A DNA stretch of 64,000 nt. It comes from Nitrospira sp. Lineage in GTDB: Bacteria > Nitrospirota > Nitrospiria > Nitrospirales > Nitrospiraceae. Below, piece after piece: positions 21,194 to 25,997 of this stretch. The notes under the pieces were generated by a model. It was not told where the DNA came from and searched no databases. It saw only the letters and a list, made by a program, of their open reading frames with translations. The stretch spans positions 1 through 64,000 of the forward strand of contig JANDJC010000010.1 in NCBI GenBank assembly GCA_024331045.1. The letters are read 5' to 3'. The position numbers were made by a program, and so were the translations under genes. Each line of letters begins with the position of its first letter. Position 1 is the first letter of the stretch.

Positions 21194-22402
21194 TTATCCG
21201 TTTGAAAAGAGCCGGTTGATAAACTTCGTGGCATCCCTGGGAGCAAGGCCGAGCGCCTGTGCATCTGACTCAGTAAAGCGCCGGCTTGGAGATGCCCCCC
21301 CTTTCGGACCGCCCTCTCCAAAGACATAGAGCGCGAATCCCTCAGCCTTACCATGGTCGCACACGACAAAATACCGATACGGCCCCTGCCGTTCTAATCC
21401 CTCGATCAAGGGACCGACCAGTTCGCGATCAAACGCTTCAATGCCAAGGACTTTGGCCTTTGGGTTGGTGCTCTGAAGTGCCTCATCTGTCAAACCGGCA
21501 TGGACATACACAAAATCCTTTTTGGCACATTCCTCCAGAGCGACGGCCGCCCGAGCCCGGAGGTCTCCCCCAGCCAGTCGTTCCGTATCAACCGCCTCCA
21601 ACCCCGAGGCAATACCGATTCCGCGATGGACATCGCTGGTGGCAACCACGGCTCCTTTGACACGATATTTTTCGGGGAGACTGGGCCACAGAACCGCCCG
21701 TCCTTCACCCCACAACCACACACAGTTGGCCGGTTTCTTTCCTGCGGCCAACCGCTCGTCATTGACAGGATGGTAGCGCAGGATCTGATAGGCAGCGTCC
21801 ATCAATTTGCGGAGAATATCCGAACCGTCGCCTGTCGGCAGCGCCGGTCCGATGGATTTCCCCAGGACAGTTTGGGGATCGACGCAGCGCGCCCTTGGTT
21901 TGCCATTCACCCACACCATCAGATGCCGGTGACCTGAGCCTGGATAAAATTGAATGGTCTCCGACCCCAATTGTTCATTGATGGCCTCGATTAACTCGCG
22001 GGCTTCTTCCGTTTCGATCAAGCCTGCGGTCGCATCATCCAAAATGACGTGCGGGCCTAGTTTCTTGATATCATCTCCCGGCTTTCCTCCCTCGGGCCGC
22101 AGAGTCACCATGGTGCACCGATACACTACATCTTGCTCCGTCACCGACACACCCAAGCTGAGTGCTTCCAGTGGACCAGGCCCCTGGTAGTATTTCTTGG
22201 GGTCATAACCGAGAATCGCTGTGCCGCTCGCGCCACTTCCATGAAGCACTCCCTCCGCGTGAATGACTAGCTGCCCCAATTCTCCCTGTTGCGCCAAACG
22301 GTCGAGATTCGGAGTCACAGAAGCCTCAAGCGGTGTGCGTCCCCCCAGTTCTGGGAGCGGCTGTCCGGCCATCCCCCCGCCGTGAAGGATCAGATATTTC
22401 AT
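21194..22402 (-). CDS. ApgM-like phosphoglycerate mutase homologue, proposed homoserine kinase analogue
   Basis: The 402-residue protein has the archaeal-type 2,3-bisphosphoglycerate-independent phosphoglycerate mutase signature ([35 protein letters not shown]). Residues that bind metal or phosphate in typical ApgM are changed: the N-terminal PDGMAD is HGGGMAG, PGSD is HGSG, and the DEAGH-type segment is DEALQS, although CDHGK is kept. Families like this next to hom and thrC have been proposed as functional analogues of homoserine kinase. No thrB is visible in the window, and the gene is 16 bases after thrC. The function is an inference from position; ordinary glycolytic mutase activity seems unlikely. 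Confidence 0.85.
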
Positions 22403-23490: not shown

Positions 23491-24804
23491 TTACTCGTCC
23501 TTGCCTTCGACTCGAATGAGGGTCGCCGGGTCGGAAACAAATGGCTTGCGATTAATCTCCGCGAGCGCATTCCGCACATCACGCTCACGAGCTTGATGGG
23601 TCTTGATCACGACAGGAACCGTTTGTCCCTCCCGACGCCCCTGCTGGAGCACGGAGGAAATACTGATGCCGAAGCGGCCCAGTTCGCCCGCAATCTGCGC
23701 CAACACACCGGGTCGATCGACAACCATGAAACGCAAATAATAGAGCGAGGAAATTTCTTCCATCGGTTTCAGACGCAACGGCCGGCGTTGATCCTGCCGA
23801 AACGACGCGGCCGGAACGCGCCTCCTGGCGCCGGAAAGGATATCCCGTCCAATGGCAATGATGTCGGCGACAACGGCCTGGCCGGTTGGCATCGAACCGG
23901 CACCGCGACCGTACAAGACGATGTCGCCGACCGCTTCTCCCACTACTTGAATCGCGTTGTACACCCCGTCAACCTGCGCGATCGGAGACGTTGCCGGCAG
24001 CATGGTGGGATGCACCCTTGCCTCAATCTCACCATCCACCAGTTTTGCAATGCCGAGCAATTTGATGACCAATCCAAACGCCTTCGCGTAGGCGATATCC
24101 GTTGGCGTAATCCGTGTAATGCCCTCTGTATAAATCTCTTTAACATTGACGGGTGTGCCGAATGCCAAATTGACCAGAATCGCAAGCTTGTGCGCGGAAT
24201 CGATGCCCTCGACATCAAAGGTAGGATCCGCCTCCGCGTAACCGGCTTGCTGGGCTTCCTGCAAGACCGCGTTGAACTCATGACCCTCTTGGGTCATGCG
24301 GGACAAGATATAATTGGATGTCCCGTTGATAATGCCATAGAGGGAATAAATGGCATCTCCCGACAGCCCCTCCATCAACGATCGGATAATCGGAATTCCG
24401 CCACCGACACTGGCTTCAAACCCTATGGCGACACCTTGACGTGTCGCAGCCTCGTAAATCTCCTCGCCATGCAACGCCAGAAGCGCCTTATTGGCGGTAA
24501 CGACGTGCTTGCCAGCAGCGACGGCGTCCAGCACGATTCGCTTAGCAACATCGCAGCCGCCGATCAGCTCAGCCACGATGTCGACAGCCGGATCATGAAG
24601 GATGGCTCCGATATCCGTCGTTAAGAGGCCTGGTGGAAGTTTGATGCCGCGATCTCTGCTGATATCAAGGTCGGCGATACGAACCAACTCGACAGGAACG
24701 CCTACCCTCCGCTCAATCAGTGCGGCATGGTCAAGCAGAACTCTCGCGACACCTGTGCCGACCGTGCCAAAGCCGATCAAACCGACTCCAATGCGTGACT
24801 TCAC
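23491..24804 (-). CDS. hom: Homoserine dehydrogenase
   Basis: It reduces aspartate semialdehyde to homoserine. The 437-residue protein has an N-terminal nucleotide fold ([19 protein letters not shown]), the catalytic signature around [18 protein letters not shown] (about residue 205) and a C-terminal ACT domain ([22 protein letters not shown]) for threonine feedback. Its start overlaps the stop of the upstream aminotransferase gene by four bases, and thrC follows 13 bases on. Confidence 0.97.
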
Positions 24805-25997
24805 CCTTGCGCCTCGTCAAGCTTGAGCGCCTTGCGAATTCCCCGAATGGCCTGGCGAGTACGGTGCTCATTTTCTACGAGGCCAAACCGGACGTACTCA
24901 TCGCCTCCTTCGCCGAATCCAATGCCGGGAGATACCGCCACTTTGGCTTCTCTCAGCAGCAATTTCGAGAATTCCAGCGAGCCCATATGGCGGTAGGGCA
25001 AAGGGATCCGGGCCCACACAAACATCGTGGCCAACGGCTTCGCCACCTTCCACCCAATTCGGTTCAGCCCACCGACCAGAACATCGCGACGTCGTTGATA
25101 ACGCAGGACGGTCTCTCGGACGCAATCCTGCGGGCCATTCAGCGCAATCACGCTGGCGATTTGAATCGGCTGAAAAATCCCGTAATCCAAATAGCTCTTA
25201 ATTTTGGCCAGTGCTCCCACGATCTCACGATTTCCAACGCAGAACCCCACGCGCCAGCCAGGCATATTGTACGCTTTCGAGAGAGTATAGAATTCGACGC
25301 CCACATCCTTTGCCCCGGGAATTTGCAGGAAACTGGGCGCTTTGTAGCCATCAAACACCAGATCGGCGTAGGCGAGGTCGTGGATGACGATTACATGATG
25401 CGCTTTGGCAAATGCCACAATCTTCTTAAAAAATTCCAAATCGACGACGGTGGTGGTGGGGTTGTGGGGGAAATTAATAACCAATATTTTGGGACGAGGA
25501 AAGGTTTGCCGATACACGCGCATGAGCTCGTCGAAAAAATCCCGGTCCTCCCGTAATTCGATGCCTCTCACCTCCCCCCCAGCAATGATAAAGCTATACA
25601 TGTGGATCGGGTAGGTGGGAGTCGGCGTCAGCACAACATCGCCGGGGCCAATCATCGCAAGGGCCAAGTGAGCGAGACCTTCCTTGGATCCAATGGTGAC
25701 AATGGCCTCCGTCTCCGGATCAAGATCCACATCGTAGTTTCGCTTGTACCATCCACAGATGGCATGCCGCAGTTTGGTGATGCCCCGTGACGCGGAATAC
25801 CGATGGTTCTTTCCTTTTCGAGCTGCCTCGATCAGTTTCTCGACGATGTGCGGAGGAGTTGGTTGATCAGGGTTCCCCATGCCGAAATCGATGATGTCCT
25901 CGCCTCGCTGTCGAGCCTCAAGTTTGAGAGACTGAACCTGTGCAAAGACATACGGTGGAAGTCGTTTGATCCGATAGAACCCTTCCCCGATCTCCAT
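24801..25997 (-). CDS. alaC: Aminotransferase class I, AlaC-type
   Basis: This is a PLP-dependent aminotransferase, probably glutamate-pyruvate (alanine) transaminase of the AlaC/YfdZ group. The 398-residue protein begins [21 protein letters not shown] and contains [23 protein letters not shown], the PLP-lysine segment [16 protein letters not shown] and a C-terminal [10 protein letters not shown] with the substrate-carboxylate Arg. As first gene of the operon it may instead supply aspartate; the exact amino acid is not certain. A good promoter lies just upstream. Confidence 0.88.

Follow-up and report, generated by a model that had tools for sequence, protein, structure and literature searches.

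The TIGR02535 family was first put forward as a homoserine kinase by TIGRFAM curators. Phosphohomoserine is a product of ThrH, which converts phosphoserine and homoserine to serine and phosphohomoserine. The biochemistry of ThrH has been published (PMC1079889). Within TIGR02535, BT2402 is required for threonine in B. thetaiotaomicron, although an E. coli strain mutated in thrB is not complemented by it (PMC7311316), and its zinc ligands are retained (PMC9765024); the name ThrB2 was given to the family in comparative work, as its occurrence complements that of thrB (PMC9026213). In the phylum to which Nitrospira belongs, canonical TIGR02535 proteins score over the cut-off in 76 of 148 genomes, and their genes adjoin thrC and lysC where ThrB is absent. 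ThrB is absent from the TIGR02535-bearing genomes tested from outside the class (8/8), and is over its cut-off in each of the eight genomes examined in other families of the class. Intact TIGR02535 proteins occur mostly without ThrB or ThrH in the genomes tested, the one exception (G135, family f5) having ThrB plus a TIGR02535 protein with all seven of the active-site residues described below.

The locus described here lies in a stretch of 64,000 nt of Nitrospira sp. DNA (the window), on contig 7 of a 2.85 Mb assembly that is 84.7% complete. An ApgM-like protein is encoded by the fourth gene of an operon (aminotransferase-hom-thrC-apgM-like-lysC) whose members are all on the minus strand and separated by gaps of at most 16 bp:

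24801..25997, minus strand: aminotransferase, 398 aa, first gene of the operon (best model, alanine transaminase PRK08175)
23491..24804, minus strand: hom, homoserine dehydrogenase, 437 aa
22419..23477, minus strand: thrC, threonine synthase, 352 aa
21194..22402, minus strand: gene of the ApgM-like protein, 402 aa, a degenerate orthologue of TIGR02535
19963..21186, minus strand: lysC, aspartate kinase, 407 aa

The ORF at 21194-22402 contains no internal stops and has its own ribosome-binding site, with a good Shine-Dalgarno sequence (GGAGGAGCTCCG-ATG), and the protein that the original prediction placed between thrC and lysC is indeed the product of a real gene in a tight operon. Among named relatives, the closest are Nitrospira metagenome genomes, at 95% protein identity; the same gene is present in N. 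moscoviensis and N. defluvii. Four congeneric genomes (G001, G015, G026 and G029, genus g1) have no ApgM-like match; the operon thrC is missing from these as well, so the whole locus is probably absent from the assemblies, rather than the single gene lost.

The ApgM-like protein is an orthologue of TIGR02535, a family of metal-dependent phosphotransferases, and was inherited vertically. It combines descent from this family with the hom-thrC-lysC neighbourhood, and the suspected relation to the proposed homoserine kinase analogue is borne out in the form of syntenic orthology. Its score against the “proposed homoserine kinase” model TIGR02535 is 301.3 bits, well below the cut-off of 446.3, while the broader NCBIfam apgM subfamily model (TIGR00306) is passed narrowly, at 325.5 bits for a cut-off of 320. 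Pfam matches are to PhosphMutase (PF10143, 153 bits), which covers the cap domain at residues 37-214, and to Metalloenzyme (PF01676, 40 bits). The closest solved structures are those of archaeal ApgM (2zkt, 3kd8 and 3idd), and the same three lead the Foldseek results obtained with the predicted model, whose core resembles archaeal ApgM (E 7e-18 to 3kd8). The AlphaFold model (39 sequences; mean pLDDT 62.6) has a good core and an unusable cap, in which pLDDT is mostly below 50, so that the structural support is limited.

The metal site was compared in an alignment of 144 distinct homologues, comprising 33 canonical TIGR02535 proteins of other lineages in the phylum, 99 Nitrospiraceae (f1) proteins, six of family f2, three of f3 and three of other families of the class. 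Seven residues (Asp9, Ser56, Asp300, His304, Asp343, His344 and His353, in L128 numbering) are present in all 33 canonical sequences, and we take these, from established knowledge of cofactor-independent phosphoglycerate mutases, to be the metal ligands and the nucleophile. The window protein has four of the seven left (Ser56, Asp306, Asp349 and His350), and so lacks the complete two-metal site of an ApgM phosphoglycerate mutase (TIGR00306). The relevant codons are:

22376..22378, minus strand: residue 9, Gly; metal-2 Asp position, Asp in 33/33 canonical sequences
22232..22237, minus strand: Ser56-Gly57; Ser56 is at the nucleophile position and kept, residue 57 is Asp in 33/33 canonical sequences
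21473..21475, minus strand: Gln310; metal-1 His position, His in 33/33 canonical and 63/99 Nitrospiraceae sequences
21353..21358, minus strand: Asp349-His350; metal-2 ligands, kept; the RTHTxEPVPF segment with the last metal-1 His is expected next and is missing

These positions bear out the three losses named in the original prediction, namely those of the N-terminal metal Asp, of the PGSD motif (HGSG here, with Gly57 after the nucleophile Ser) and of the DEAGH segment (DEALQS, with Gln310 in place of the metal His). The damage is greater than was stated, since the RTHTxEPVPF segment is also gone; four of the seven residues persist. The GYDPxxYYxGxGPLEA signature, described as kept, is present but not fully intact: the invariant Arg of the canonical cap sequence GYDPxxYYxGR.PLEA is replaced by Pro75 in the window protein and in at least 97% of Nitrospiraceae.

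The losses differ in how widely they are shared, and in route from one lineage to another. The His310 to Gln change is local, most congeners having His, the loss at position 9 is genus-wide, and that of the seventh ligand is family-wide: His353 is gone in 99/99 Nitrospiraceae proteins, as the RTHTxEPVPF segment has either been deleted or replaced by other sequence. Copies in this family usually lack the first Asp in addition to this His, and retain between one and five of the seven residues; a full metal-1 or metal-2 set is found in none of the 99. Asp306 and Asp349 are kept in at least 90%, the nucleophile Ser56 is kept in 65 and gone in 34, and His350 is present in 56 of 99. In f2, the nucleophile Ser is replaced by Gly or Thr in four of six sequences and Asp343 by Asn in all six, while His353 is retained; in f3 (three sequences), almost all ligands are lost. 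As sister families have followed different routes of loss, at least some of the decay must postdate their separation. In a tree of 39 representatives Nitrospirales is monophyletic (99/97), and the nearest outside branch, with weak support (79/86), is f5, in which all seven residues are present. One f2 protein (L032:5001-6230, G035) has Gly for the nucleophile Ser and Asn for a metal Asp, yet scores 469 bits with TIGR02535 and 485 bits with PRK04200, over both cut-offs. Degenerate ApgM-like genes occupying the same operon slot are also seen in f6 (L180:3926-5095, G146; 0/7 ligands) and f10 (L179:4076-5296, G191; 4/7 ligands), which are ThrB-bearing families outside Nitrospirales.

The prediction that thrB is absent held up. 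The sole GHMP-kinase match in the genome is IspE, with 46 bits for a ThrB cut-off (TIGR00191) of 168.25, and ThrB is over this cut-off in none of the 59 Nitrospirales genomes sampled, where the other GHMP proteins found were all well below it, nor in eight further Nitrospiraceae genomes. There is no match in the genome to the APH-type homoserine kinase (TIGR00938, the ThrB2 of APH type), and viral contigs that were searched yielded nothing. An APH protein that occurs throughout the order was considered as a ThrB2 and set aside, because its gene adjoins one for a MurU-like nucleotidyltransferase, which makes it AmgK-like. A shikimate-kinase-like homoserine kinase of the DvMF_0971 type was discarded too, there being mostly one AroK-like SKI protein per genome and no conserved second copy. 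Nearly all genomes checked encode a second ThrC-like protein of about 416 aa, 36-40% identical to the ThrC of the operon; in two Nitrospira genomes (G022, L084:3095-7998; G024, L085:2942-8073) its gene lies beside ORFs that resemble ThiF/MoeB, JAB-domain and CysK/M proteins (families assigned by eye), an arrangement that may point to synthesis of a sulfur amino acid by way of a protein thiocarboxylate.

To judge from family and distribution, homoserine is instead most likely phosphorylated by ThrH. The gene lies elsewhere in the genome (G000:C29, outside the window) and encodes a protein of 205 aa that scores 317 bits with TIGR02137, over the equivalog cut-off of 223.4, and is 67.5% identical over 194 aa to P. 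aeruginosa ThrH (1rku); the ApgM-like protein is consequently not the only candidate for homoserine phosphorylation in this genome. ThrH was found in 50/50 Nitrospirales genomes sampled (48 over the cut-off, and two, G173 and G177, cut by contig ends), and is over the cut-off in 0/98 other genomes of the phylum; it is present in genomes of f2 and f4 as well. As no other SerB-type phosphatase exceeds its own cut-off in Nitrospirales, ThrH probably has a part in making serine as well as threonine. Its family and distribution suggest that the homoserine activity would be the physiological one, although ThrH may act mainly as a phosphoserine phosphatase in these bacteria. A literature search of limited reach found no paper on ThrH in Nitrospira or Leptospirillum.

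In nine Nitrospirales genomes whose thrC region was read (G036, G039, G050, G052, G045, G037, G040, G043 and G046), thrC is followed directly by lysC in the same operon and the ApgM-like gene is cleanly absent. It has been lost in g3 (Leptospirillum-like, the genus name being inferred), g8 and f4, and in G058 an ApgM-like pseudogene with three TGA and one TAG codons (L088:5915-6664) still lies between intact thrC and lysC. Together, the nine intact operons and this pseudogene mean that something else must phosphorylate homoserine in the order. The central proposal of the original prediction, that the ApgM-like protein replaces homoserine kinase, is accordingly not supported: ThrH is order-wide, relatives keep hom, thrC and lysC without the gene, and the metal site is incomplete in every Nitrospiraceae copy. 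We consider it probable that the protein, an orthologue of a candidate homoserine phosphotransferase, was made redundant by ThrH and has been kept as a pseudoenzyme with a second role, probably structural or regulatory.

It is unlikely, in our judgment, that the protein is still the homoserine phosphotransferase, or a second one, with a reduced or re-built metal site. Its operon position, the lack of ThrB and the retention of Ser56 and two Asp residues would all agree with such an activity, as would the need for BT2402, of the same family, in threonine synthesis (PMC7311316). Indeed, the conservation of Asp306 and Asp349 in the family, with Ser56 and His350 also left in the window protein, means that a one-metal or altered activity may persist. 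Against this stand the absence of a complete site from all 99 Nitrospiraceae proteins, the loss of the nucleophile in a third of them (34/99), the substitution of the canonical invariant cap Arg by Pro75, the presence of ThrH, and the relatives that keep hom and thrC without the gene.

The losses in g3, g8 and f4 and the G058 pseudogene might also be taken to mean that the gene is a functionless relic, tolerated on its way out. Over 306 common pairs with 0.1 < dS < 1.5 in all four genes, its median dN/dS is 0.108, about twice the values of its neighbours (thrC, 0.053; hom, 0.066; lysC, 0.052). A value of 0.11 nevertheless indicates that purifying selection still acts on the Nitrospira gene, if less strictly than on the neighbours (0.05-0.07), and the frame is open in nearly all Nitrospiraceae matches examined, down to about 57% identity, the exceptions being fragments at contig ends and one Nitrospirae MAG (L246:1933-3138). 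In this MAG, an in-frame TGA falls exactly at the otherwise invariant Cys227, and may be a sequencing error. The constraint is also unevenly placed, as canonical invariant columns are kept at 90% or more in Nitrospiraceae for 38/61 in the cap and only 17/61 in the C-terminal core (Fisher p = 2e-4). Moreover, about 20 positions are newly fixed and invariant in Nitrospiraceae with a residue that differs from the canonical one, among them His7, Glu41, Pro75 (for Arg), Met98, Lys113-Leu115, Asn142-Gln144, Gly157-His158 (for Ser-Tyr), Asp175 (for Pro) and Cys227 (for Ser). The conserved cap, the new invariant residues and the low dN/dS show that constraint continues, on something other than the metal site, and we think it improbable that the gene is a mere relic. 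Nor is it likely that the protein now catalyzes another reaction, at an active site newly formed from the cap and those Asp residues that are left: His7, His158 and Cys227 are invariant in the clade and Asp306 and Asp349 are retained, but the other metal-site residues still vary (His350 in 56/99, Ser56 in 65/99) and there is no candidate substrate.

On the pseudoenzyme reading, ThrH would supply phosphohomoserine in Nitrospirales, and the ApgM-like protein, freed from catalysis, would have had its two-metal centre dismantled step by step, along a different path in each family, some lineages losing the gene outright. From the state of the site, we infer that the protein would have no phosphotransfer activity; its present role would be structural or regulatory, and the regulatory alternative that the original prediction had allowed for was a fair reading. 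The conserved cap domain of the Nitrospiraceae protein would most likely serve to bind a ligand, or else one of the enzymes of the aspartate pathway as a partner. A more specific version, which we offer tentatively and hold to be less than an even prospect, is that this former phosphotransferase now works in Nitrospira as a regulator or scaffold, without catalysis, at the point where the threonine and lysine branches part, its cap binding an amino acid of the pathway or joining ThrC and LysC. If this is true, the disarmed f6 and f10 copies in the same slot would imply a second role of long standing that can be uncoupled from catalysis.

For the question of whether the TIGR02535 family phosphorylates homoserine, the phylum amounts to a natural experiment. 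In genomes with ThrH (Nitrospirales) or ThrB (f6 and f10), the TIGR02535 gene is usually missing or its product has a decayed metal site, while the canonical set conserves this site completely; the contrast agrees with the role proposed for the intact family, f5 excepted. The pattern lends indirect support to the homoserine assignment where the protein is intact, and cautions against that assignment where it is degenerate; the f2 proteins that pass the TIGR02535 cut-off with Gly for the nucleophile Ser are an annotation pitfall of this kind. The apparent threonine gap in Nitrospira would be closed by a known enzyme family, ThrH.

Compared with the known systems, the window protein is closest to TIGR02535 (BT2402; ThrB2 in PMC9026213), with which it shares orthology, the thrC/lysC slot, similarity over the full length and occurrence without ThrB, and from which it differs in its score (301 vs 446 bits), its broken metal site, the Arg to Pro75 change in the cap and the co-occurrence of ThrH. 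With archaeal ApgM (2zkt, 3kd8, 3idd) it has in common the fold, the domain order and a score over the broad subfamily cut-off (325.5 vs 320), but it misses metal ligands and sits in a threonine operon. ThrH (TIGR02137; P. aeruginosa 1rku) is likewise a candidate for the phosphohomoserine-forming step and is encoded elsewhere in the same genome, but it is a HAD-fold protein and shares neither family nor fold with the ApgM-like protein.
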